Part shown: positions 3,027 to 17,265 of the stretch, one piece after another
How positions within the stretch are numbered: position 1 is the stretch's first letter
Layout: each line of letters starts with the position of its first letter
Virus record (IMG/VR): IMGVR_UViG_3300030380_002488
Span: 1 to 20,361 of that record
Reading direction: 5' to 3' (one strand)
DNA length: 20,361 nt
Source: a virus
The notes under the pieces: generated by a model
Told to the model about the DNA's origin: nothing
The model's input: only the letters and a program-made list of their open reading frames with translations
Databases searched by the model: none
Translations under genes and position numbers: made by a program

Positions 3027-4523
3027 TCAATCGCCACGCTTTCCTATAATGTCGTCTATCCTTAGAATACTAATGGTAACTTCACTAGCGGATTGCACTG
3101 CTTGTTTAACTAGGTCAAGTGGCTCCCAAACATCGGCTTCTTTCATTGAGCATGCTCCACCATTCTCTATATCTGGACCAGCATCGCTGTTACCCAGTTG
3201 ATGTTCATTTCTAAGCGTCAATACAGTATCTAGTGGGTCATGCCCTGCATTCTCTGCGATAGTGGCAGGTATCGATTCAAGAGCATCAGCAAACGCATCA
3301 ATAGCCATTTGTTCACGACCACCTGCTTCTGCTGCTCTTGACCTGATATGCAAGGCTGAGTTTAGATATGCTGAGCCTCCACCCGGCACTACGCCTAATG
3401 TAGTGTATGCTAAGCATACTACACCCAATGCGTCTTCAAAACCACGCTCTGTCTCATCAAGAGTTTGCTTAGTAGCGCCTCTTAGAATAAGAGTGGTGAC
3501 TTCTCCTTCACCTTTCACGACGACATACTTCATGTCGCCTATTACCTTGCACTCTACATCACAATCTACTGCTTCCTGTAAGTCTTCTGTAGTGTGCGCT
3601 ATTGTAGCGTTAAGCAGTTTAGATAAAGCGGTCATATCACTCTCAGGAACTCTATGAACCAGAGAAATACCTTGTTTTGCTAATGTCGCAGCAACTACCT
3701 CATTCACGCTATCTCTTACAAATACGACACCACCATCCGGTAACATATTGGCTATTTGTTGACCTTTTTCGACCCAATTATCACGGCCCGTTTGTCTCTT
3801 ATATTGCTGATACTCAGCAGCCGAGCCTAAATTGAGTTGAACATTATCATCTGTTTTGCTGTCACTCAGAGCAGTGTTGATGAGTAACGCCCTACCATTA
3901 GGTGTCATAGGCATAGCGGGTAAAGTAAACTCCTTGTGTAAGACTACACCAGAGAAGCAAGATGAATCATCTAGGCTACCTCCGGGCTGACATAACACAC
4001 GGATTCTTTCAAACTCTCCACCTGCCTTTTCTACTGCTTCTACACATAAATTACTAACATGCTCTATGCTTGATTCAAGCGCTTTCCCTGTAATCGAAGT
4101 TTTGGCTACATTCTGTAAATGGTCTTTCGCATCTACTCTAAGTGTTTCAAGATGCTCTGTAGTCCACCTAGACGCTTGTCTGTAACCTCTACAAATTACA
4201 TTGGCGTGTAGCCCCTTGTTAAACAAGAGTTCACTGTTACCCAATAGTTCACCCGCTAATACAACAGTGCTTGTAGTACCATCATAGCACATACTCTCCT
4301 GTGTATTTGCAGCCTCTACAACCATGCTTGCAGCAGGGTGGCTAACATCTAGTTCTTGTAAGATAGTAGCGCCGTCATTGGTGACTATTACATTACCACC
4401 AGCGTCTACCATCATTTTATCCATCCCCATAGGACCAAGTGTAGTTTTCACTGTCCCTACGGTTCGCTTCGCTGCTCTTATATTGTGCACTACTGCACTA
4501 ATGTTCTGTTCTTGTTCGTTCAT
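3027..4523 (-). CDS. Group II chaperonin (thermosome/CCT-type)
   Basis: The product is an ATP-driven protein-folding ring subunit. Family motifs are clear: TLGPMGMDK at 28-36, TNDGATIL at 48-55, DGTTS at 81-85, LRG near 347, [11 protein letters not shown] at 356-366 with the Asp at 364, PGGG at 380-383, and [10 protein letters not shown] and LRIDDII near the C-terminus. The ATG at 4523 is chosen because a GAGAGGG ribosome site precedes it by about six bases; an upstream TTG at 4538 is unlikely. At 498 residues it is shorter than the roughly 545 of cellular thermosomes, lacking N- and C-terminal extensions and parts of the apical domain. Two departures are Tyr before DGTTS, where Gly is usual, and SAYL after PGGG, where a Glu is usual. 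It may fold virion or replication proteins alone or mixed with host subunits. Confidence 0.95.
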
Positions 4524-4641
4524 TATTTTCCCTCTCAAATTTTTCTTCTAATATCGAATCTATGCATGAATCGCATGCTTTATGTTTGGCACATCTAATA
4601 CCATCCCAAGTTGTTTTGAAACAAAAATCACATGTTGACAT
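4498..4641 (-). CDS. Zinc-finger micro-protein, 47 aa
   Basis: The start ATG is embedded in the stop of the exonuclease gene (TAATG), and the last 26 bases overlap the chaperonin start in another frame. The product begins MSTCDFC and then has a Cys, a His and a CDSC pair (pattern CxxC, nine residues, C-x3-H-x2-C-x2-C), followed by a charged helix-like tail with [15 protein letters not shown]. Five or six potential zinc ligands in 25 residues argue strongly for a folded zinc-binding protein rather than chance. It resembles the micro-protein at 5234-5374 in its M-x-x-C-x-F-C start and its C-D-x-C pair. Function unknown; possibly an accessory factor for the neighbouring replication enzymes. Confidence 0.6.
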
Positions 4642-5249
4642 TACCAATCCACCTCGTATTCTGTGATTTCTCCTGTCTTTCTATCTCTAGCCTTTACGAT
4701 GCCCTCTTCCATTCCATGTTTCCACAATTCGTAAACTAACTCAGCGTCTTTCAAGCAATACTCAGCAACTTTGCTATAATTCCCCTTCCGCCACTCTATA
4801 GGGGCATCGTGACTATTCATTAACTTACCCTTGCCCAAGGTGTGATAACAGGCATCTGAAAGAGGCACTGCGTGACCGACTATACTTTTCAGTAGGACAG
4901 ATGTATCGAATACCTGCTCCTCCGATTTTGCCATTATATCACCTGCTGCCCAACAATCTAATGCATCTCTAATAATAGGTAAGTCGAATCCTTTTAGATT
5001 GTGACCTAAGACCATCCCACCATCATTTACATGCTTGGCTAAGTCCTCACCTATTGTTTTAGGATGCATCTTTTTGATGATAGTTCCTTCTGGTAAGTAT
5101 TTAGATATAGATTCGTTACTGTATACTGTTCCTTGGTCACCATCCCATGTGGCTACTACAGTAGGCTCAAACAAATGGCTGTGACCCCATCCACCTATCT
5201 CATGTGAGAAATTGGCAGTTTCAATATCGAGTGCTAACATTTTCCGCAT
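4641..5249 (-). CDS. DEDDy-type 3'-5' exonuclease, stand-alone
   Basis: This 202-residue protein has all three motifs of the RNase H-fold DEDDy exonucleases: Exo I LALDIE (Asp8, Glu10), Exo II GHNLKGFDL (Asn84, Asp89) and Exo III EYCLKDAELVY (Tyr164, Asp168). The closest look is to the proofreading domain of family B polymerases rather than to bacterial DnaQ with its His. The ATG at 5249 is chosen over the upstream GTG at 5267 because GGAGGA sits six bases before it. It lies between a zinc micro-protein and the helicase-like gene upstream and another micro-protein and the chaperonin downstream. It probably trims 3' ends during replication or recombination, or aids proofreading in trans; substrate is not readable from sequence. 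Confidence 0.85.
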   Translation of the reverse strand: MRKMLALDIETANFSHEIGGWGHSHLFEPTVVATWDGDQGTVYSNESISKYLPEGTIIKKMHPKTIGEDLAKHVNDGGMVLGHNLKGFDLPIIRDALDCWAAGDIMAKSEEQVFDTSVLLKSIVGHAVPLSDACYHTLGKGKLMNSHDAPIEWRKGNYSKVAEYCLKDAELVYELWKHGMEEGIVKARDRKTGEITEYEVDW

Positions 5250-5374
5250 ACTATATCCTCCATACACATTTTACACCAGTCGCATACTGCAACAGGGGTC
5301 TTCCAATGCATACCCAAGTGGTAGCCCCCTATGTCTTTTCCTATTATAGAATCGCAGAATATACACGGTGTCAT
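5234..5374 (-). CDS. Zinc-finger micro-protein, 46 aa
   Basis: The ATG at 5374 is fused to the stop of the helicase-like gene (TAATG), and the end overlaps the exonuclease start by 16 bases. The product starts MTPCIFC, has two His around residues 19 and 23, then CDWC and further Cys (KMC, VCGKC at the very end). That gives eight Cys in 46 residues, enough for one or two zinc sites. The GGAGGA that serves the exonuclease lies inside its last codons. It resembles the 47-residue micro-protein at 4498-4641 in its N-terminal M-x-x-C-x-F-C and its CDxC pair, so the two may be paralogues. Function unknown. Confidence 0.6.
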   Translation of the reverse strand: MTPCIFCDSIIGKDIGGYHLGMHWKTPVAVCDWCKMCMEDIVCGKC

Positions 5375-6810
5375 TACTTGTCACCGCCATTCTTAGATTT
5401 CTTGATGTAATCATCTCTGAGTTTAACATAAACTCTAACACCCTCTCTGGTGTCCTTGAACATCTTTGCTCCGTATGCATTGAATTTGTCATTTATCGAA
5501 CCCTTACTGCTTAGGTTAGCAAGTGCACCGAATGCTTTCATCATCTCTGCTTTCTTAACCCAATTGACTCCTCTATGGTCGTCAAAGTCAAATCTCTCGC
5601 TTCGATTGTAAGCGTCACGCCAGAATCCTTCCATCTTCTTTTTCTCATTGCCACCAGAGCCAACCTTAACTTCTGACTCAAGCCACTGGATTAGATTTTG
5701 ATAAAGGTCGAACAGTATTTCTTTAGCCATGTCTATGTGGTCGCCATTAACTTTCCACGAGCCTTCTATCATAGCCATGTGATGAGCAAGGACATTAGTA
5801 TAGTTCTGTAGTCCCATGATGAATGATGCACAAATACCCTGCTTTTCAGGACCCATTGATTCTACTAAACTATAGTATTCATCAATTGCTGCTATCAAAG
5901 CAGGTACATAGGATGAATCTACTTTAAACATGTTATTCATAACACTCATAGTTGCAGTTTCTCTATCATCCTCTGACATTTCTTGCCACTCTAAATGAGA
6001 CAAACCGCTGAGTTTCAAAACCCTGTTTCTTAGATTGGTTTTCAATCCCGTAAAGAAGTCAGCAACTTCATCAAATGATACCTCAAACTCAGGTTTATTA
6101 TGAACTGCTTCGGCTAGTTCATGGTTAACTGCTCTCTTCATCTCTAGTGTCCAGTGTCGCCAGTATGTCAATACACGCTGGAATATACCCTTGTCAAGCA
6201 CATGCTCTTTGATACCTTTTGGTGGGTATGTGGTAATCCACAGAGATACCTCAGACTTAACAGTGAATGTATCTCTAGCCATGTGTTTAGTGAGTATGTT
6301 TCTACCAGTACCCGCTGAGTTTAGAGCCGATTGTAAAAAGAGAGTAGTGTTCTCATTGTGTTGACCGCCTTTGAGTAATACAGAACCCTCATCAAAATTA
6401 AGCCCTTTTCTACCCGCCAATATACCCGGCCTAACCATCATGTCAGGATTTCTGTTATCCTCTGAATCAGGGTCAGGTACAAGCGTACCTACAAGTGCAG
6501 CGTCATTACCTGAATTATAATCAGTCGATTGTAAACCACACGCTTTCAACACCTTTTCTATTATCTGATAAGATGCCGATTTACCTGTTCTTGTATCTTG
6601 AATCCAGAATACGCTTACTCTTGGGTCAAGGTTACTTCCACCCACAGGTATTCTCACATAAGGTATCGATGCCTGTCCGAGAATAAAGAAAAAGGATAGT
6701 AAACCCGGTATCTCATTATTCTTACTAACTTGATTGAAATGGTCTAAGTAACCTTTCAATATAGGATATTTCTGTACACATTCATAATTCTCTGCTCTAT
6801 GTTCCATCAT
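5374..6810 (-). CDS. Helicase-like P-loop ATPase, candidate replicative helicase
   Basis: The 478-residue protein has a P-loop, DTRTGKS at 72-78, with Gln where the first Gly of the Walker A motif normally stands. It also has a Walker B-like GLNFDE (Asp140, Glu141), a sensor-like SLWITTYPP around 189-197 and a possible arginine finger in GIFQRVLTYW near 212. The order and spacing resemble MCM-like AAA+ and DUF3987-type phage helicases. The remaining 260 residues are mostly helical and unrecognised. It sits beside an XPF-type nuclease and the primase, and no other helicase is seen in the window, so a fork helicase is the best guess. ATG-ATG at 6810 follows GAGAGGGAATAG; the first 14 bases overlap the upstream gene. 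Confidence 0.6.
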   Translation of the reverse strand: MMEHRAENYECVQKYPILKGYLDHFNQVSKNNEIPGLLSFFFILGQASIPYVRIPVGGSNLDPRVSVFWIQDTRTGKSASYQIIEKVLKACGLQSTDYNSGNDAALVGTLVPDPDSEDNRNPDMMVRPGILAGRKGLNFDEGSVLLKGGQHNENTTLFLQSALNSAGTGRNILTKHMARDTFTVKSEVSLWITTYPPKGIKEHVLDKGIFQRVLTYWRHWTLEMKRAVNHELAEAVHNKPEFEVSFDEVADFFTGLKTNLRNRVLKLSGLSHLEWQEMSEDDRETATMSVMNNMFKVDSSYVPALIAAIDEYYSLVESMGPEKQGICASFIMGLQNYTNVLAHHMAMIEGSWKVNGDHIDMAKEILFDLYQNLIQWLESEVKVGSGGNEKKKMEGFWRDAYNRSERFDFDDHRGVNWVKKAEMMKAFGALANLSSKGSINDKFNAYGAKMFKDTREGVRVYVKLRDDYIKKSKNGGDK

Positions 6811-7522
6811 TTCTATTCCCTCTCTTATTGTATGTCTTTTGGACTCTGACTGGTTCTTCTGAGGTTAGAACATCTAGTAATCTCTGCCTCAAGGTAGAAC
6901 CCATACCTCTTACTTTTTTCAGTGATTCCACAAATAACATTTCTTCTATAGAACCGCACTTGTCGAGCAACTTGTCTACCAATTCCGGTCCAAAGCCGGG
7001 TATAGTAATCAGCATGTCAGCCCTCACATCATTAGTGCTTACTCTAGTAATTGCTCTTGCTCCATGTCTACTGGCTGGCTTGTGTAATTTACTGTGTAAC
7101 TTTGCTATGAACATAGCAGCCTCTGAATAGTCTTTGGCTCTGTATATATGGCAATCGAAATCAGCCATGATTCGTGCGAATGTTCCTAATAGTTCATTCA
7201 TCACTTTGGAATATGATATATTTCTCCCCTGTTTCTTGGATATGGCGACATACTTTGCTATGTCCCCATGCACTACGAGAAATACTCTCTCGCAGTTAGC
7301 ATCTAAGTTCTCTATTTGCCTCATCAAGTGCCCACTATGACTTGATTGAAAAAGGTCAGATAGGCTCTTACACTCTATGTTAGCATTACCTGCTTTGTAG
7401 TCACCCATACCCTGTAAATGTTCTTTCTTTGTTGGGAATCCTTGTCTTTCGGCAGCCCTAACTATTGCATCGTGTAAAGGTCCACGCTCATTACTGTCTA
7501 TAATTAGTGGAGGAAGTTTCAT
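6797..7522 (-). CDS. XPF/ERCC4-family nuclease with two HhH motifs (Hef-like)
   Basis: Structure-specific endonucleases of this family cut branched or flapped DNA. The catalytic domain shows LIIDSNERG (Asp9, Glu12), GMGDYKAG (Asp41) and IECKSLSD (Glu50, Lys52, Asp56). These match the family signature GDx(n)ERKx3D except that the usual Arg of ERK is Cys51. Two helix-hairpin-helix motifs follow: LITIPGFGPELVDKLL near 171-186 and LKKVRGMGSTLRQRLL near 201-216. At 241 residues it corresponds to the nuclease plus HhH half of archaeal Hef without a helicase domain. The start ATG overlaps the preceding stop (ATGA). It probably resolves replication or recombination intermediates of the viral genome. 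Confidence 0.88.
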   Translation of the reverse strand: MKLPPLIIDSNERGPLHDAIVRAAERQGFPTKKEHLQGMGDYKAGNANIECKSLSDLFQSSHSGHLMRQIENLDANCERVFLVVHGDIAKYVAISKKQGRNISYSKVMNELLGTFARIMADFDCHIYRAKDYSEAAMFIAKLHSKLHKPASRHGARAITRVSTNDVRADMLITIPGFGPELVDKLLDKCGSIEEMLFVESLKKVRGMGSTLRQRLLDVLTSEEPVRVQKTYNKRGNRNDGT

Positions 7523-7748: not shown

Positions 7749-8852
7749 TTACTCCTCCTCATCTATTGCACCAGTGCCATCCCAATACCTACACTTACCA
7801 AGGCACATGCCCTTTTTCCATAGCATAGAGCAGGTCTGTGGATAATCGGTACCCACAATAGTCCCTACTTGATACCTAGTGGTGCTTTCATCAAAGTCAG
7901 CCCATTGAAGTGACCGAATGTAGTCTATTATTGTTTCAGTATGCTTTCGTATATCTTCGGAAGAAACTCTATGAGAGGACATAAAAAATCTCAGGCGTTT
8001 TGATAGGTATTTGACAAGTTGCACCCTCGCATCATGGCTAGGGTTACTTCCAACCCTACACGCTGCTGAATTAAGACAAGGTAATATCATCACGCCATCC
8101 ATACTGACTGTAGGTAAATCTATTGGCGCACTATTTCTATTGAATATCTGACTTCTTTCCTTTACATCTCTAACATTTAAAATCAATCCACTATTACCAT
8201 ACGGTATCATACCTGCTTTAGGACTCTCAGCCTTTTCCATGATAAATTCTAAACCTCTTTCCATGTCATTAGTAGTCAGTGGTATAGACCAAAGGCCACG
8301 CTTTGCATTGTAAGAGTTAGGTATGCGTATCATACCGCTAGTGTCGAATGGAACTGCCGGGTCTGAGCAAAATAAATCTAATTCCACAATCCAATCATTG
8401 ACTGTTTGCATGCCCGCTTCTTTGATAGCGGATAGTTTATTAGGTCCACTTGGCATGTATTCTTTATCAAGCATAACCCATACATGAAAGCCACCCCCAC
8501 TATACCATACAGCATGTGATACTTCTTTTTTAATCAAGAAGTAATGTAGTTTCAAAGTTTGCTTAAGGGCGACCTCTGTTTCTACATCTGGTCTATCTCT
8601 TTGTCTGAAATTCTTTGGGTCGAAGTCCATGACAAAATGCCTCACTATAGGGGTCATTAAATCTACACGCTTGTTGTACGGTTGCTGTAATCCCCTATAC
8701 CCGTAAACTGTCATAAACGCATTAGATACGCCATTCTTACCAGCCCAGTATTTTTCTAAGTCTTGATTTGACCTAACGAGTTTTCTGAAACCCTTACCTT
8801 TCTCAGTGCTAAGTTCCATCACCTCCCTAGGAAAATCAAATACAATTTTCAT
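7749..8852 (-). CDS. Archaeo-eukaryotic primase with PriL-like Fe-S C-terminus
   Basis: The catalytic half has the AEP motifs: FVMDFD (Asp76, Asp78), YSGGGFH (118-123, His123) and PFDTSGMIRIPNSYN with Asp170. The C-terminal third resembles the Fe-S domain of the large primase subunit: LPCL (Cys259), HDARVQLVKYL near 273, YQVGTIVG near 327, then Cys341, Cys350 and Cys354 as likely 4Fe-4S ligands. At 367 residues both halves are small, giving a single-chain PriS-PriL-like enzyme. It would make primers for the family B polymerase encoded nearby. ATG at 8852 starts one base after the upstream stop. The acidic end (DEEE) doubles as the ribosome site of the next gene. AEP identity is secure; the PriL assignment is by pattern. 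Confidence 0.88.
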   Translation of the reverse strand: MKIVFDFPREVMELSTEKGKGFRKLVRSNQDLEKYWAGKNGVSNAFMTVYGYRGLQQPYNKRVDLMTPIVRHFVMDFDPKNFRQRDRPDVETEVALKQTLKLHYFLIKKEVSHAVWYSGGGFHVWVMLDKEYMPSGPNKLSAIKEAGMQTVNDWIVELDLFCSDPAVPFDTSGMIRIPNSYNAKRGLWSIPLTTNDMERGLEFIMEKAESPKAGMIPYGNSGLILNVRDVKERSQIFNRNSAPIDLPTVSMDGVMILPCLNSAACRVGSNPSHDARVQLVKYLSKRLRFFMSSHRVSSEDIRKHTETIIDYIRSLQWADFDESTTRYQVGTIVGTDYPQTCSMLWKKGMCLGKCRYWDGTGAIDEEE

Positions 8853-8853
8853 T

Positions 8854-9138
8854 TCAATCAGTCCATTCGTTAATCTTGAGGTCTTTCATAATTTCATTAT
8901 CAACTATTTCTCTCAAAGTAATCATCAGTTCATCTATATCGCTCAATAATCGCTTATTCAAGTTTAGATACATTGGTCCTTTTGGACCACCTTTTTCATC
9001 AAACTCGTATAGGCTAGTCTGTATTGCCATAGAGTAACTAGTGTCTTTACCTAATTTAGTAAAGGTTGCATCAACTGGTCTGTCCACCAGAGGAGACAAC
9101 AATACTTCTATTGTCCTACTTATCATATCTTCATTCAT
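8854..9138 (-). CDS. Hypothetical protein, 94 aa
   Basis: I do not recognise this acidic, soluble protein. It has an N-terminal helix, a central beta-like stretch (SYSMAIQTSLYEFDEKGG), a Gly/Pro loop (GPKGP) and a C-terminal helical segment rich in Leu, Ile, Glu and Asp. No Cys and no catalytic motif are visible. ATG at 9138 is preferred to the GTG at 9147 because AGGAG lies about ten bases before the ATG but only one base before the GTG. It overlaps the end of the Cas4-like gene by eight bases and is followed one base later by the primase gene, so it may be an accessory subunit of either. Confidence 0.6.
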   Translation of the reverse strand: MNEDMISRTIEVLLSPLVDRPVDATFTKLGKDTSYSMAIQTSLYEFDEKGGPKGPMYLNLNKRLLSDIDELMITLREIVDNEIMKDLKINEWTD

Positions 9139-10129
9139 TTTCTTCACTCCTATATTTTTCTAAATATTCTTGTGGGTTATCTGACCCATCCCAACTCGGA
9201 CATATACTCTTAAAAGAGCACCACGCACATTTACCTGTGCTTGCCTTTGGTGGAAAATAATTTGTCAAGTAGGCCGTAATTAATGCCGTCTTGAGTTTCT
9301 CAACCTTCTTCTTGTAAGTGTTGATTGTTCTGTTGTTGAGTTTTTCATATATTACTCGGTCAACTGCTCTCTGCTCATAACCGTATTTATTGTAAGTGTC
9401 TAATTGAGCACTTGAACCTGCTGGATATACCCATCCCCAATGTGTTACATCTTGGTATTGATGGTCGGCTTTTTTCAACAAATATTGATAGAAAGCCATC
9501 TCAGTTCTCATCGATTGCATCTTGAAATTAGAGTCATTCCATTCATCATCTTTGTTCTTAGACTGTACCCATTTACCTGTCTTCAATTCCATTATGGCTA
9601 CACCTTCTTCTTCACTAAAGCCTCGGTCAATGCTACCAGCATAGTGTATAGGTATCTCAAGCGTTTCTCCGTTAAATTCAAACTCCTCTACCACATAAGC
9701 GTGAACTTCTAATTCATTCATAATCGGTAGATATTTGTCTGGACCTACTGACAACAGTCTTTCTAAGTCCCACCTGATGCGAGTCTCTATGATAGGTTCC
9801 TCGCCTAAAGTATACTCTTCTTTTGGTAGTATGCTTAGAGCCAAAGTCAGCGCTTCCTCTCGTTTATCTCTTTGCATAAGTTTGTAAAGTTCTCCTACTA
9901 TGGGCATAGCAGTATCATAAAACGCTTCTACAGCATTGTGTACATTAGTACCCTTAGTCATAGCGTCAGTCGTAGGCTCAGGTAGCCTGTGAACACGCTT
10001 ATACTCATATTGCTTGGGACAAAAATCGAAGTCACTCGTCAAACTTGTCTTGGTAATGCGGAGCATTTTCTCATGCTCTGGCTCCCACTGATATGTGGAT
10101 TTTGCATACGCTGCCCAGTCTCTACTCAT
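9131..10129 (-). CDS. Cas4/RecB-like PD-(D/E)XK nuclease with Fe-S cluster
   Basis: Cas4-type proteins are Fe-S nucleases that cut or trim single-stranded DNA ends. The expected elements are in order: a first cluster Cys in DFCPKQYEY (Cys37), GTNVHNAVEAFY with His64, GSID with Asp168, IMELKTGKW (Glu181, Lys183), an E-x3-Y stretch near 210-214, and CAWCSFKSIC with Cys301, Cys304 and Cys310. The 332-residue length is longer than typical Cas4 and closer to viral and AddB-type nuclease domains. No CRISPR array or cas1/cas2 is present, so a replication or recombination role fits better. ATG at 10129 follows GGAGGAGAG, and its start overlaps the preceding stop (ATGA). Confidence 0.87.
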   Translation of the reverse strand: MSRDWAAYAKSTYQWEPEHEKMLRITKTSLTSDFDFCPKQYEYKRVHRLPEPTTDAMTKGTNVHNAVEAFYDTAMPIVGELYKLMQRDKREEALTLALSILPKEEYTLGEEPIIETRIRWDLERLLSVGPDKYLPIMNELEVHAYVVEEFEFNGETLEIPIHYAGSIDRGFSEEEGVAIMELKTGKWVQSKNKDDEWNDSNFKMQSMRTEMAFYQYLLKKADHQYQDVTHWGWVYPAGSSAQLDTYNKYGYEQRAVDRVIYEKLNNRTINTYKKKVEKLKTALITAYLTNYFPPKASTGKCAWCSFKSICPSWDGSDNPQEYLEKYRSEENE

Positions 10130-10263: not shown

Positions 10264-10448
10264 TCGCTCATCTCCATTTCGATGATGCGCTGTAGATAGA
10301 CTGCTAGGTCCATCGCTTCTTCTTGAGCGTGGACAAGCCATTCTAGCCTAGACAGAGGCGCAGTTTCCATAGTAACTCCATACTTACTTTTACCTACTTC
10401 TGCTCGCCCTTGGATTTTCTTACAAACTTCATCTTCTATTCTACTCAT
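10260..10448 (-). CDS. Short MazG-like / NTP pyrophosphohydrolase-type fragment, 62 aa
   Basis: The sequence contains KYGVTME, RLEWLVHAQEEAMDLAVYLQ and a helical end. This is the core signature of small phage MazG-like or dATP/dGTP diphosphohydrolase proteins (K-Y-G, W-L-x-H-A-x-E-E-x-x-D-x-x-x-Y-L). Such enzymes hydrolyse nucleoside triphosphates and bind Mg through helical E-E and D residues. Only one such helix is present here and the protein is about half the usual length, so it may act as an oligomer or not be catalytic. It is coupled by ATGA overlaps to DNA polymerase B upstream and to the CxCC protein downstream, which fits a role in the nucleotide pool. Family call is tentative. Confidence 0.55.
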   Translation of the reverse strand: MSRIEDEVCKKIQGRAEVGKSKYGVTMETAPLSRLEWLVHAQEEAMDLAVYLQRIIEMEMSE

Positions 10449-12805
10449 TGTTCTTCACTCCAATATTTTTTGGGCTGTGCAGCGCCAGATGCAAACTCTA
10501 AGTTCCAATCCAAAGCGCCAAAGATACCCTTCATCTTTTGCTTAACTAACTTGTCGACCATTTTATCATAATCTAATTCAAATCCTTCTAAATCTGATTC
10601 TTTTTCAAATGCCACCACATCAGTAGGTGGTAAATTGTCAGGCGTTTTAATGACATAAACCCAATTAACACTGTCGCCCTCACCGTATTTTTCAGTGGTA
10701 GCCAAGTGCTCATTGAAGTATCTAGCGCCTTTGACAGCGCCCCCTGCACCTGATGAATAAGAGTTGATTGCCTTTTGTAATCTAGTAGTGGTAGCAATAT
10801 CAGACAGACTAACATCACCTCGCTTTATGCGCTTTGATATTGGTCTAATCATCCCAATTACTTCATCCTCTTTTGCACCGCATATCGCAGTGAGAACATC
10901 ATTCTCTAAGTTTTTAGATATGGGAGCCAGTGTGCTAATCTTACCCCATCTTGCCGACTTCTTTTTCCCTTTATCTTCGGGAGGCCAAGAGCAAATACCG
11001 TAATACAAATTCTTACCACCCACAATCCAGTAAGGCATGTAAGCCTCAAACTCGACTATCAAATGACTAGACTCATGCTCTCTTTGTACAATCTCAGTTA
11101 AACGCTTGGCAAGCGCATGCGCTTCATCAAATGGTACTTTTACAAAGGCCGAATCTGTATGTCCATAAAGAGCATCGTAGCCTTGATTTTCAGACTCCTC
11201 CATGAGGAATTTGATGGCCCTTCGACCACATGCCGTAATAGCACTTGCTATATCGAAATCAGACCATCCCCAGTAAGCACTAGCGGTCATGCCATAGAAG
11301 GAGGCCATCACTCTCTTTACTGCTAATTGTAAAGTATTCCAGCCGTTTCTCTCATTTTCAGAAGAAGCGTCACGCATTTTCTGTTTGTACATGTCACGCA
11401 GGTCAAACATCTCTGTAACAATCTTAGGAAGCAAGGCATCTGTACCTTGCACCCAGCATGTACCATCTGGTAATTCTCTAACATTCGGCTCATCTTTACG
11501 ATGGTTTGGAACTTGGGTCTCCCACGATAGATTATGGCTCAGTATGATACTAGGGTACAATCCCTTGTAATCTACACAAGCCACACCCTCGTATCTACCG
11601 GGTGTGGGAGGGGGAATGAAAGCACCTTCATACTCTTGCTTATCTTGCCGAGAGCGTGTAGGCGCTTTCCAGTGAGTCCTTCTACTTAGAAGTCCTCTAG
11701 CGAATCTTGTCACATTATGACAAGAAGGGAATGAAACTCCACATATCCTTTGTAAGGACATGAAGAAATTGAGAACATGGTTATCCTCATCTATTTTTTT
11801 CAGTAGTATTGTATCTTGCATACAGTAGTCTACATAATCGTCAAATCGTTCTGTCCAACCAGTGAATACATCCATGTCAAATTTACCACCATAACCTAGT
11901 GTGCTCGCAATGGTGTCTAATTTAAGATTCTTCAATTGAGGTTGACCGCTGTCTTTCCATACACGCTCAAAGCCACTACCACTTCTCAGCGGGGCGGCTG
12001 TGTCAAAGCATAGTCTACCTATGATTGGTTGCGCTACATAATCATAAGAGCCACTTTGTCTAGGTCTAATCACTCTACCCAAAGGGCTGAGTTTTCTAAA
12101 ATCACCTAATCTTCTTACTAAGTGTGGCAAGTCAGCCCACATAATAGCGTGGGCTACAAATACATCAGGGTTGCACTCTTCCATGTAATTAAGGAATGCT
12201 ACATGCATATCCTTTTCCGAGCCGTACAGATGCCTTTCATAAGTAAACTTAACAGGCACATTGTTAACTGTGTACTCTACTTCCTTTTCCTCGATGTGGT
12301 TATCCATTTCATAGAGTCCTGTAGGATTATCTTTCATCCAACAGAAAGCAACCTTACGATTGTTATAGGAATCCACCACTGCCATGACAGTAGTCTCGTC
12401 GGTCTTTGGGTCCCACTCAAGGTCAAAGTGCCATACACGAGGCTTCCACTCTGGCATCTCTGAAATATTGTCTATCAGATACCTATCTACTAGGCTCAAA
12501 TCAGCCTCCCATGTAAGCCTAAATTCTCTTGCCATATCTCTAATATCGCTATTACGATAAGCATAGACTTTGACAAGTTCCTCTCCAGTTCTCAGGGCTT
12601 CGGACTTGTCGTTTCTATCTATGTCTGAGCCGGGGTATCTATCTAAGACTCTTCTTACAATCCTATCAGGTGTGGAAGCCTTAATCCAAAAGTAAGGTCT
12701 AAAATCTGATACAGTTTCCTCAATCAGGTTACCCTCAGCGTCACGCCATCTTTTGTAGATGTGGTCTGGACCTTCGGGGTCTGGTCGGAAGGTATCAATT
12801 ATCAT
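10445..12805 (-). CDS. polB: Family B DNA polymerase with variant motifs
   Basis: This 786-residue enzyme has the standard plan: an N-terminal domain with FRPYFWIK near 35-42, an exonuclease domain, then fingers, palm and thumb. Exonuclease motifs are HFDLEW (Asp128, Glu130), VFVAHAIMWADL (Asp225) and YCMQD (Tyr327, Asp331). Polymerase motifs are A VDYKGLYPSII (Asp412), B KRVMASFYG (497-505) and C YGHTDS (547-552, Asp551). Departures from the common forms are Ala in place of Asn and of Phe in Exo II, Ala before Ser in motif B (usual NS), and His549 where motif C normally has its first Asp. Metal-binding Asp412 and Asp551 are kept, so polymerase activity is likely. It probably copies the viral genome with the clamp and loader encoded nearby. 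ATG at 12805 lies close behind GAGGAAGAGGAA. Confidence 0.95.
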   Translation of the reverse strand: MIIDTFRPDPEGPDHIYKRWRDAEGNLIEETVSDFRPYFWIKASTPDRIVRRVLDRYPGSDIDRNDKSEALRTGEELVKVYAYRNSDIRDMAREFRLTWEADLSLVDRYLIDNISEMPEWKPRVWHFDLEWDPKTDETTVMAVVDSYNNRKVAFCWMKDNPTGLYEMDNHIEEKEVEYTVNNVPVKFTYERHLYGSEKDMHVAFLNYMEECNPDVFVAHAIMWADLPHLVRRLGDFRKLSPLGRVIRPRQSGSYDYVAQPIIGRLCFDTAAPLRSGSGFERVWKDSGQPQLKNLKLDTIASTLGYGGKFDMDVFTGWTERFDDYVDYCMQDTILLKKIDEDNHVLNFFMSLQRICGVSFPSCHNVTRFARGLLSRRTHWKAPTRSRQDKQEYEGAFIPPPTPGRYEGVACVDYKGLYPSIILSHNLSWETQVPNHRKDEPNVRELPDGTCWVQGTDALLPKIVTEMFDLRDMYKQKMRDASSENERNGWNTLQLAVKRVMASFYGMTASAYWGWSDFDIASAITACGRRAIKFLMEESENQGYDALYGHTDSAFVKVPFDEAHALAKRLTEIVQREHESSHLIVEFEAYMPYWIVGGKNLYYGICSWPPEDKGKKKSARWGKISTLAPISKNLENDVLTAICGAKEDEVIGMIRPISKRIKRGDVSLSDIATTTRLQKAINSYSSGAGGAVKGARYFNEHLATTEKYGEGDSVNWVYVIKTPDNLPPTDVVAFEKESDLEGFELDYDKMVDKLVKQKMKGIFGALDWNLEFASGAAQPKKYWSEEQ

Positions 12806-13149: not shown

Positions 13150-13914
13150 TCAGTCCTCCTCGTATTCTTGGTCCATTATCACCATCAGGAAGTTAGTAAA
13201 CGGTTGCTCTAAAACAAGCACCGTCTCATCACCTGTATACAGGTTTAACTCACCGTTAGGTAGATTGGATAATAATTCTGGTAGCCACTTGTCAAACGCT
13301 GACCTTGCCGGGTGACTCTCAGGCGCAGCAATGTTGGTGAGTGACGCTCTGATGAACATCTTACCAGTAGCCGACTTGCCTCCTCGTATGACAAACTCTT
13401 CACCCTGTGGGTCGAACTCAGTCTTACAGGAATACTTGTCACCTAATACTTTCTTAAAGCCAGTAGCGGGTCTCAGCGATTCGGCTGTAACTTTGGCATG
13501 GTAGGTCAAATCTAAGTGTGTCCATCTTTGCCACATACCTTCCTCTGATTGTTTTATTATCTTTTCAATCAATCCTACCAGTTCTTGAGACTTGATGTAG
13601 GATGAGGTAGGTAGTTGTAAACTAGACTTGTCACACTGTACATGTAGAGTACCTGTTTTAGAACTCTGCGTCAGTGTGAGGTTTTGACTCTTAACTGTGC
13701 TGATAAACGATTTCAACTTAGGTATATCTGTAATGTAGATATTACCAGTGTCAGTTGTACCGCATTCAACTTGTCTTCGGATATAATGAGTCTGTTGTCC
13801 AACGGCACTACTTATCCCGTTAGATGAAACCTTTATCACGAGGTCAGACAAATCCTTACCAAAACTAGATAAGAAGTTACCAAAGGTATCTCTTCCTATT
13901 GTAAAACTAGCCAT
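13150..13914 (-). CDS. DNA sliding clamp (PCNA-like)
   Basis: The 254-residue length is that of archaeal PCNA, and the sequence shows repeated beta-strand/helix units in two halves. Helpful details are the LSDLVIKVSSNGISS start of the first domain, a central linker region near residues 115-125, KKVLGDKYSCKTEFDPQGEEFVI in the second domain and a terminal FLMVIMDQ strand with an acidic EYEED end, as in PCNA C-termini. Identity is diverged enough that the call also leans on context: it precedes polymerase B in an operon and a clamp-loader subunit lies upstream. It would encircle DNA and tether the polymerase and nucleases. ATG at 13914 has AGGTGAT a few bases upstream, and a TATA box lies 50 bases upstream. 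Confidence 0.7.
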   Translation of the reverse strand: MASFTIGRDTFGNFLSSFGKDLSDLVIKVSSNGISSAVGQQTHYIRRQVECGTTDTGNIYITDIPKLKSFISTVKSQNLTLTQSSKTGTLHVQCDKSSLQLPTSSYIKSQELVGLIEKIIKQSEEGMWQRWTHLDLTYHAKVTAESLRPATGFKKVLGDKYSCKTEFDPQGEEFVIRGGKSATGKMFIRASLTNIAAPESHPARSAFDKWLPELLSNLPNGELNLYTGDETVLVLEQPFTNFLMVIMDQEYEED

Positions 13915-15059: not shown

Positions 15060-16336
15060 TGTTCATCTCCTCCAAATTGATTTAAGTCTGTGTTGCCACT
15101 GCCACCAGAAGGTCTTGCTGTCTTCCAAGGTACATAGATACCTAGTGCTCCAAGGCTTGGTAGCATCTCATCATTGTATGGTCTCATTCTCAATCGACCA
15201 ACTACGATTACTTGAGTACGCTCAGCATAAGGCTTCCATTCTCCGTCTTTGTTAAACTCAAACGGATGGTCTTCATCATGCATCTTGCCCGGAATCCAAA
15301 CAGTCACGGTAGATGCAAAACTATCTTTACCATATCGTGATTGTAATCCAAGGCTTGTAATGTTCATACGGAAAGACCTTCCTGTTTGGTCGTAATCACT
15401 GTTCATAGGTTCTTTGTTCAGTAAACTGACATATCCTTTCGTGACGACTATGGGGTTATATGTCATGCCGTTTGCACCTGCAATCTTACGGTCAGCGTGT
15501 GCTTCGACTAGTTCAGATAACTCTACATATTCATTATGCATGTTGTCATTGACTAGTAATCTTTCAGGAGTGAACTCTTTTCTAAGATGCTCAGGTAGCC
15601 AGTTGTCTGTATACTCTAGTTTCTCATGGAAATCTCTGTTAGTGTACAAAGTGTCTCTGTCCTCTTTAGGCGCAATGACTTGAATCTTACAAGCAGTCCA
15701 CTTCTCATAATTAATGTCCATACCCTTTCCAGATAGATTTACTCTCCATCGCTTAATGTCTCCGCCCTTTTCGGGAGAGCCTAAAAAGTAAGCAGTCCTA
15801 CTGAAACTTGTCGGTGCTAGTGGTGTATTCTTATCATCACGCTTGTTCATCAGACATAAAATCATGTCATTGTGTTCAAAGCCAAACCAAGGTAGATTAC
15901 TCCCGTCTACCTTTTCATTAGTAGGTTCACCGTTGACATGCCATACGCCACTCTTAGCAGTGACTATACCAATGTGTCCATCATCTATCGCTCTACCTTG
16001 GTTAGACTTGAATATATTCATAGCCCTTTCCATGACATTCGCTCTCTGGTCTTTGCTTTCATCTTCTATGCCGATGAACATACCGACATAGGTTACTGTT
16101 TCTCTTTGGCTAGAGCCACTAGAGCCACCCAAGTTACGGGTTTCTATAACGAATTGCTCACTCCACTGACTTAGGTAGAAAGGGTCTTCTGCTAACGGGT
16201 CGTCAACAGAAAATTCATTCTTAAGCCATATTGTGAACTGGTTGGCTGCTTCACCAACCTTAATGTTCATTCTCTCTCCGTAACCTCTGAGTCTTTCTAG
16301 TACATCTTCCGGCCATGTTTTATTCTCTTCATTCAT
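15056..16336 (-). CDS. Unrecognised large protein; candidate ssDNA-binding (RPA-like) protein
   Basis: I recognise no family for this 426-residue protein. It starts with a short helical segment, then has alternating beta strands through the middle (TVTYVGMFIGIED, HIGIVTAKSGVWHV, DMILCLMNKRD) and again at 300-400 (PIVVTKGYVSLL, TQVIVVGRLRMRPY). This could be two or more OB-like barrels. It ends in a flexible Gly/Ser/Asn tail finishing in DEQ, somewhat like SSB tails. It lies between the clamp loader and the RadA/Sak4-like ATPase with ATGA overlaps on both sides, a typical place for an ssDNA-binding protein. The SSB proposal is inference from context and strand pattern. Confidence 0.5.
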   Translation of the reverse strand: MNEENKTWPEDVLERLRGYGERMNIKVGEAANQFTIWLKNEFSVDDPLAEDPFYLSQWSEQFVIETRNLGGSSGSSQRETVTYVGMFIGIEDESKDQRANVMERAMNIFKSNQGRAIDDGHIGIVTAKSGVWHVNGEPTNEKVDGSNLPWFGFEHNDMILCLMNKRDDKNTPLAPTSFSRTAYFLGSPEKGGDIKRWRVNLSGKGMDINYEKWTACKIQVIAPKEDRDTLYTNRDFHEKLEYTDNWLPEHLRKEFTPERLLVNDNMHNEYVELSELVEAHADRKIAGANGMTYNPIVVTKGYVSLLNKEPMNSDYDQTGRSFRMNITSLGLQSRYGKDSFASTVTVWIPGKMHDEDHPFEFNKDGEWKPYAERTQVIVVGRLRMRPYNDEMLPSLGALGIYVPWKTARPSGGSGNTDLNQFGGDEQ

Positions 16337-17265
16337 ATTTTTTCCTCCTTATTTTTCTTCAATTTTGCTGTAAAGTACTCAACAAATGACAAATCATCAT
16401 CCGGCCACTGAGTAGCCAGCATGACAAATTCGCCATAAGTGAGCATGAAACTGTGCCAGTCGTCTTCGCTTGCCATCAGTGGCTTAGCACGATGCCTTAA
16501 TCCCTTTAAGACACCCAAACGGCTGTGTCCTGACTCTATCGCCTGAGTCAAGTAAGCGGTTAACTTTGGGAAGTCACTACCCAAAAGCGTAAACGCTGCT
16601 TTATTGAGATAGGTTGTATCTCGTTTTATGTTTTCTATTAGTGCTTCTGGTTCTCTTGGAAGGCTATCAAGAATGTCAAGCGCCCTTCTAAGACTACCAT
16701 TGGTGAATTTCAATAGATGAGGGAGGTTTGCTATCCATTCAGTAGGCATACCCTCCTCATTGATGATAGTTACAAGTCGTTCATTATCATCGAAACTTAT
16801 AGGCTTGAAATGATATGTAAGGCACCTATCTCTAATCGCATCGTGTATAGGTCCTATGTCATTAGCCGTCAATATGAATATGGTGGATTGGTGACTCTCT
16901 TCCATAATCTGTCTGAGAGCCTTTTGAGCAGGGGTTGTAAAACTATCTGCTTCATCTAAAAAGATAATGCGGCGACTTACTCCCATCCCCTTCTGCTTAC
17001 TTATTCCTTTCAATTGCCTGATGTAATCTATACCTCTGTCGTCACTAGCATTAGTGACAATAAAATTCATCGGGTCAAAGAACTCACCCAACAAGTCTTT
17101 ACCTAATGCATAGGCAGCACTTGTCTTGCCGACACCCGGTGGACCTACAATTAGTAAGTTAGCAGGGCACGATTCAAGAGTCCAGTTCTTAGCCGGATTC
17201 ACGAAATCGTGACAACCTACTAGGTCGCTCAAAGTGTTCGGTCTATATTTCTCTCTCAAGTTCAT
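16333..17265 (-). CDS. Replication factor C small subunit (clamp loader)
   Basis: RFC opens the sliding clamp and loads it on primed DNA. The AAA+ signature is complete: REKYRP at 4-9, Walker A GPPGVGKT (41-48), Walker B IIFLDEAD (Asp104, Glu105), sensor 1 ILTAN (131-135) and sensor 2 GSLRRALDIL (190-199). The arginine-finger motif, SRC in most RFCs, reads DRC here (IRDRC, 144-148), keeping the Arg. The 310 residues match archaeal small subunits, with a C-terminal helical collar. No large subunit is in the window; it may be elsewhere in the genome or come from the host. The stop overlaps the next start (ATGA). A TATA-like box lies about 35 bases upstream. Confidence 0.95.
   Translation of the reverse strand: MNLREKYRPNTLSDLVGCHDFVNPAKNWTLESCPANLLIVGPPGVGKTSAAYALGKDLLGEFFDPMNFIVTNASDDRGIDYIRQLKGISKQKGMGVSRRIIFLDEADSFTTPAQKALRQIMEESHQSTIFILTANDIGPIHDAIRDRCLTYHFKPISFDDNERLVTIINEEGMPTEWIANLPHLLKFTNGSLRRALDILDSLPREPEALIENIKRDTTYLNKAAFTLLGSDFPKLTAYLTQAIESGHSRLGVLKGLRHRAKPLMASEDDWHSFMLTYGEFVMLATQWPDDDLSFVEYFTAKLKKNKEEKI

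Follow-up and report, generated by a model that had tools for sequence, protein, structure and literature searches.

A viral family-B DNA polymerase lineage carries histidine in motif C together with an altered KKRY motif

We analysed a virus record of 20,361 bases (IMG/VR IMGVR_UViG_3300030380_002488; "the window" hereafter means this whole stretch), whose minus strand encodes a family-B DNA polymerase (PolB) with histidine in place of the first aspartate of motif C, a residue highly conserved in replicative family-B polymerases. The resulting motif, YGHTDS, is a real feature of an entire viral lineage and not an error. The same lineage has exchanged the second lysine of the KKRY motif for asparagine, and the two changes together suggest a DNA-checking contact that has been rebuilt, not an enzyme that is broken. 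On the strength of sequence comparisons, we consider it fairly probable that the window polymerase is the active, replicative polymerase of a magrovirus-type tailed virus and that its contact with the DNA minor groove has been rebuilt. The positions on which this interpretation turns are the following:

10445..12805, minus strand: family-B DNA polymerase of 786 amino acids, Magro-type (PF00136, E 5.4e-33; phrog_262, E 2.6e-76; AlphaFold2 model; structure match)
11150..11167, minus strand: motif C YGHTDS, residues 547-552, aligned to RB69 D621/D623 (His549 codon 11159-11161; Asp551 codon 11153-11155)
11003..11014, minus strand: KNLY, residues 598-601, the KKRY counterpart (Asn599 codon 11009-11011, aligned to RB69 K706)
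10937..10939, minus strand: Ile623 codon, the RB69 K734 counterpart (non-basic in 50/51 lineage rows)
12131..12154, minus strand: Exo II AHAIMWAD, residues 218-225 (His219, Ala220 and Ala224 at RB69 W216, N217 and F221; Asp225 kept)
11291..11317, minus strand: motif B KRVMASFYG, residues 497-505 (AS in 73/153 frames)

Re-reading of the open reading frame (ORF) placed the His549 codon (CAT on the coding strand), YGHTDS and Exo II AHAIMWAD exactly where a preliminary description had located them, and D128, E130, D225, D331, D412 and D551 were present as it had stated. PF00136 scores 114.9 bits on the protein against a cut-off of 23, and motifs A (DYKGLYPS), B (KRVMASFYG) and C (YGHTDS) were all found, with His549 as the departure from the two-Asp form of motif C (YxDTDS). 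According to the consulted parts of PMC7544198, the known family-B members PolB2 and piPolB likewise lack this first Asp. The AlphaFold2 model of the polymerase has a mean predicted local distance difference test score (pLDDT) of 90, and its best match among solved structures was the ternary complex of E. coli Pol II (Z 29.1, root-mean-square deviation 3.3, 700 residues aligned), alongside KOD (Z 28.8; 3.2, 693), yeast Pol delta (28.4; 3.4, 720) and RB69 (26.2; 3.6, 719), where Z values within 1 of each other count as ties. In a 50-row alignment of the lineage, spanning 37-91% identity to the window protein, His549 is invariant, Asp412, Asp551, Lys497 and Tyr504 are fixed in 50/50 rows, and D128, E130, D225, D331 and the Exo III Tyr (Y327) are kept in every row covering them; Asp388 is not conserved in the lineage. 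Because Asp412 and Asp551, which bind metal in relatives, and the exonuclease carboxylates are all present, the enzyme should both polymerise and proofread. The loss of a widely conserved residue could be taken to indicate an inactive polymerase or a sequence artefact, but this is scarcely credible for a substitution that is seen in >100 contigs, next to four fixed polymerase residues and in a protein with a confidently predicted full-length fold.

Using the window protein and more distant members as queries, we searched viral contigs and obtained 164 distinct PolB frames from 234 loci, frames being counted as distinct when differing by one letter or by truncation. Histidine was found in 154 of the 164 (YGHTDS 90, AGHTDS 53, FGHTDS 11), which amounts to 154/154 of the lineage frames holding motif C; the remaining 10 comprised four haloviral PolBs added by hand, all with YGDTDS, and six pieces without the motif. 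Across 153 distinct frames the His codon is CAC in 120 and CAT in 33, and Asn599, present in 153/153, is encoded by AAC in 78 and AAT in 75. Since the His codon varies between CAC and CAT, it is the residue that is conserved and not the DNA. The lineage forms one clade, so a single event would suffice to explain a neutral marker, namely two substitutions made in the past and without lasting consequence for function; we regard this as unlikely, given that both residues are invariant in 153/153 frames down to ~37% identity while their codons vary. At five loci (L070, L076, L077, L047 and L204) the PolB frame is split in two pieces, reflecting either assembly errors or true frameshifts.

The preliminary description had also listed an AS in motif B as unusual, which holds for the window polymerase but not for the lineage: 73 of the 153 frames have AS, 79 have NA and one has NS, so that the motif B Asn is found in the 80 frames lacking AS, and NA is also seen in E. 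coli Pol II. Because His and the Exo II start AH[AS] are fixed, both motif C and Exo II are marks of the lineage as a whole, whereas AS marks only the subclade of the window. A Tyr or Phe at the start of motif C pairs with KN.Y (100/100) and an Ala with KN.N (53/53); little weight was given to this pairing because it may simply follow subclades and because T4-like enzymes with Ala keep the KKRY Tyr. A mixed scan with an [HD] pattern covered the best 80 matches, all at least 35% identical, and intermediate Asp-type relatives may exist beyond these. Among genome contigs, a profile scan using AH-Exo II and GHTDS patterns, both biased to this lineage, retrieved one locus, at 40% identity, in a metagenome-assembled genome labelled Maricaulis. 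This genome (G019; L146, L267-L269) holds three PolB matches from two viral lineages, including one YGHTDS PolB broken by stops and one of the H2 type introduced below; because both occur in the same genome, its polymerases probably derive from viral contigs in the bin.

In a column-by-column comparison of 50 lineage rows with 11 outgroup rows (RB69, T4, E. coli Pol II and eight haloviral or haloarchaeal sequences), just two columns of the polymerase domain were fixed within each group but differed between them: RB69 D621/His549 and K706/Asn599 (50/50 versus 11/11). A wider comparison of residues 380-786 set 51 lineage rows against 27 Asp-type outgroup rows, with PolB2 and H2 rows left out and a threshold of >80% versus <20%. 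Here, column 549 was the sole acidic column lost and columns 599 and 623 the sole basic ones, position 623 being basic in 23/27 outgroup rows and non-basic in all but one of the 51 lineage rows. For an engineered Pfu variant, the consulted parts of PMC3733885 describe three minor-groove contacts (Y495, R613 and K593), with Asp541 orienting K593 by a salt bridge; this Lys probes the groove at the last but one base of the primer. Counting by hand along the aligned Pfu row, we find Asp541 to be the first motif C Asp and Lys593 the second KKRY Lys; because they map to His549 and Asn599, both partners of one contact appear to have been exchanged. The second contact (Pfu R613, RB69 K734) falls at position 623, where the basic residue is lost in 50/51, and the third reader, Tyr504, is kept.

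In the mechanism that we propose, His549 would replace the acidic member of an Asp-Lys pair, the Asp of which orients the minor-groove-reading Lys, and Asn599 would stand in for the Lys itself; both residues have changed in the lineage. The second minor-groove Lys/Arg is gone from position 623 and Tyr504, the third reader, stays. His549 and Asn599 may touch each other and serve as minor-groove readers, and the sensing of mismatches, or hand-over to the exonuclease, may be changed. In the literature consulted, the role of the first motif C Asp is disputed between a metal site and the positioning of the minor-groove Lys, and a metal-site adaptation would have His549 alter the divalent metal used or the activation of the primer 3′ end, for example through a preference for Mn2+, with Asn599 secondary. 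In its title, one reference listed by PMC8764526 names the phi29 residue as a ligand of the metal, and the consulted parts of PMC8764526 report that Dpo2, which lacks this Asp, shows higher activity with Mn2+ than with an equal amount of Mg2+. Against this, the same parts state that the metal is bound in structures by the second Asp, while the first points away. The loss of the Asp also accompanies that of the KKRY Lys. The catalytic ion ligands named in the consulted parts of PMC3564110 are D411 and D623, not D621. We hold a metal-site adaptation to be possible but doubtful; the new evidence favours a minor-groove pair of Asp and Lys over the metal site.

Further comparison came from the 36 panel rows outside the lineage, in which the first motif C position is Asp in 27, Ile in three (PolB2) and His in six (one other viral lineage, H2). 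The KKRY Lys is kept in all 27 Asp-bearing rows, even where the motif is otherwise altered (Deinococcus VKNY, Salinibacter virus AKNY), and is absent from all nine rows without the Asp, which read Ile/Thr in PolB2 (3 rows) and His/Gly in H2 (6 rows). Seven of the Pol II loci found entered the panel; the other Pol II loci that were read also had D and KKRY, except L289, whose longest frame is not a polymerase. Together, these patterns are suggestive of Asp/Lys coupling across lineages. The preliminary description had named as a counter-indication that its residues be standard across active archaeal PolBs; this is not the pattern observed, Asp standing in 27/36 outside rows of a panel that holds archaeal B3 through one set of rows and no archaeal B1. 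H2 is itself another viral PolB lineage in which His stands at the place of the first motif C Asp (VYVHTDG) and VGNY at that of KKRY, encoded at L269 and L291-L313 on IMG/VR contigs of up to 69 kb. Its best match among phage records is only ~25% identical, and VYVHTDG occurs in 20/20 distinct frames bearing GVWxQxGNY.

Several observations weigh against a rebuilt minor-groove contact. Position 623 is also non-basic in 4/27 outgroup rows, and because a Lys at 622 is gained in 51/51 lineage rows, the basic charge may merely have shifted by one place. Relative to the outgroup, the lineage gained acidic columns at 485, 560, 646 and 711 and basic columns at 380, 389, 404, 478, 486, 528, 616, 622, 654, 675, 757 and 779; none lies within motifs A, B, C or KKRY, and compensation by charge elsewhere is conceivable from these columns. 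The title of Saturno 1998 calls the first motif C Asp a metal ligand in phi29. On the tree, each trait changes three times, giving only two (by starred branches) to three independent pairs, and the paired test (p 0.5) cannot reach significance with such numbers. Finally, a single paper (PMC3733885, consulted in part) is the source of the Asp-Lys contact, which it describes for a binary complex of an engineered Pfu enzyme.

Regarding the role of the polymerase in the virus, PF00136 occurs once per virus in 18/18 related virus records of 63-116 kb (in one record as two adjacent pieces, a frameshift). PF00817 (family Y), PF00476 (family A) and PF03833 (PolD large subunit) were found in 0/18 records with positive controls, in searches that included neither family X nor protein-primed PolB and in records of unstated completeness, so that this absence is no proof. 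Being the sole A-, B-, D- or Y-family polymerase found in all 18 records argues for a working replicase. A translesion or damage-tolerant enzyme acting like archaeal PolB2, and not as the main replicase, would share with PolB2 the lack of both the first Asp and the KKRY Lys, and PolB2 is described as an extender polymerase in the consulted parts of PMC8764526. The lineage nevertheless keeps the exonuclease carboxylates and the Exo III Tyr, whereas neither Exo I nor Exo II could be recognised in the PolB2 rows, and the loss of Exo I and Exo III typical of PolB2 is not seen in the lineage, both being kept. The PolB2-type D(K/R) motif is absent as well (its Asp column reads L in 26, Y in 18, M in 3, F in 2 and I in 2 of 51 lineage rows), and PolB2 lies outside the group formed by the lineage with haloviral and T4-like enzymes. 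With carboxylates kept and no family A, Y or D polymerase detected in the 18 records, a PolB2-like specialist was set aside as the primary explanation and appears quite unlikely. A 2-aminoadenine genome made by PurZ-type synthesis, considered as a cause of the altered contact, was also rejected: PF00709, the adenylosuccinate synthetase family, was found in 0/18 records, with controls positive in 14/14.

The exonuclease domain has also changed. Exo II starts with AH[AS] and keeps Asp225 in 50/50 lineage rows, versus [GA]WN in 11/11 outgroup rows, so the PolII-like "GWN" is missing from the lineage. Relative to RB69, W216 is exchanged for His219 in 50/50 rows, N217 for Ala220 in 49/50 and F221 for Ala224 in 48/50, with W, N and F each present in 11/11 outgroup rows. 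In relatives, the Exo II Asn and Phe hold single-stranded DNA. The window also encodes a separate protein of interest:

4641..5267, minus strand: stand-alone 3′-5′ exonuclease-like protein (DIET, GHN..FD, YCLKD), ~5 kb downstream of the polymerase gene

A homologue of this protein accompanies the polymerase in 17/18 records. Sixteen copies keep the DIET/GHN..FD/YCLKD residues, the last motif showing Leu/Val and Lys/Ser variants; the L259 copy (G001) has lost DIET and FD, although the polymerase of the same record (L075) has the Exo II of the lineage. In G012 no exonuclease match was found; judging from the distances between these genes elsewhere, its copy would fall past the contig end. For the predicted structure of the window copy (pLDDT 94), each of the 50 matches listed is a PolB structure, either of an archaeal enzyme or, in some cases, of Pol epsilon (TMq 0.64-0.70); from its motifs we infer that the match is to the PolB exonuclease domain, the match table giving no target range. 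The protein matches PHROG 403, "DNA polymerase exonuclease subunit", at E 6e-11. PF10108 matches weakly in 8/10 family members (E up to 1, best 7.5e-4) and leaves the window copy unmatched, other weak Pfam matches of the family are PF01612 and PF03104, and tblastn at E 1e-5 gave no match in 50,697 phage records. With its PHROG 403 match, the weak Pfam match in relatives and its PolB-like fold, the protein resembles the stand-alone PolB-type exonucleases of PF10108/PHROG 403 and may assist proofreading. A fuller relocation of mismatch checking, from a charged minor-groove track to a His-Asn pair plus a small residue, with the polymerase's own Exo II stripped of Trp, Asn and Phe and the separate exonuclease, with its canonical Exo II, proofreading in trans, seems to us rather doubtful. 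Trans-proofreading was not adopted as a settled function, as the polymerase retains its own carboxylates and the L259 copy is degenerate despite the lineage-type Exo II in L075.

In a tree of 51 rows, from which columns 549 and 599 had been removed beforehand, the lineage formed one clade (support 100/100), grouped with haloviral and T4-like PolBs at 91/96, slightly under the firm-support mark of the tool. The single clade and the single PolB per virus in 18/18 records bear out the earlier suggestion that the PolB marks a viral lineage of its own. Kazlauskas et al. 2020 (PMC7544198), in the parts consulted, place magrovirus polymerases as a "Magro" group in the PolII-like subclade with B5 (haloviral) and T4-like enzymes, the same neighbours as in our tree. 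Our lineage fits this published group and is therefore not a new family; no named magrovirus was among the 40 best-matching phage records. For this group, neither the His of motif C nor KN nor the altered Exo II comes up in the consulted text of that account, though its logo figure may show them. No paper was found for the exact motif "YGHTDS" in the literature searched, and in the parts of the literature consulted the two-residue exchange is not described, with the same reservation for the published logo figure.

The remaining annotated genes of the window surround the polymerase:

3027..4538, minus strand: chaperonin of the Cpn60/TCP-1 family (PF00118, E 1.7e-129)
6797..7522, minus strand: ERCC4-type nuclease (PF02732, E 8.3e-11)
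7749..8852, minus strand: primase-like protein, weak match (PF04104, E 1.2e-4; 21.9 bits versus a cut-off of 22.4)
9131..10129, minus strand: PD-(D/E)XK nuclease (PF12705, E 2.6e-17)
16333..17265, minus strand: clamp-loader small subunit-like protein, RFC-S (NF001679, E 9e-46, 156 bits, under the model cut-off of 303; PF00004 above cut-off)

By eye, we take the chaperonin to be thermosome-like. The set of chaperonin, ERCC4-type, PD-(D/E)XK, primase-like and RFC-S-like neighbours resembles the magrovirus gene set in PMC10768690 and PMC12999244, as well as the magrovirus gene content in the consulted parts of PMC10160649. From the literature on magroviruses, the hosts would be marine Poseidoniales archaea. 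Directly upstream of the polymerase gene lies a gene for 254 amino acids (13150-13914, minus strand), at a place where a sliding clamp could be expected; this identity is unsupported, no match being found in Pfam, PHROGs, NCBIfam or a PDB sequence search. Four ORFs at 75-2926 on the plus strand, opposite to the replication cluster, include two Gly/Ser-rich ones without a PHROG match and are perhaps structural genes.

A large natural lineage that apparently replicates with His at this position, its presumed partner changed too, opens the disputed role of the first motif C Asp to direct test: if the two residues form a true pair, each reversion alone should be harmful and the double reversion should rescue. 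It also cautions that motif C alone is no ground for calling such enzymes inactive or translesion-type.

Among known systems, the very distant PolB of plasmid pSE-12228-03, of the primer-independent type, also has the first motif C Asp replaced, by Thr (VTTDG, aligned), with KTRG as a KKRY counterpart guessed by eye. Archaeal PolB2/Dpo2 resembles the lineage in lacking both the first motif C Asp and the second KKRY Lys (3/3 rows); it differs in its unrecognisable Exo I/II, in its D(K/R) motif and in belonging to a different clade. The PolB2 motif is given as HxxxD in the consulted parts of PMC8764526, and its conserved His (HGI[GV]DS) is not the same substitution because it stands at the place of the Tyr, not of the Asp. 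Nearest in the tree are the RB69/T4 and haloviral B5 polymerases, which share with the lineage the exonuclease carboxylates, the metal-binding Asps of motifs A and C and the motif B Lys and Tyr, and differ from it in having Asp621/Lys706 where the lineage has His/Asn and Exo II W216/N217/F221 where it has His/Ala/Ala.
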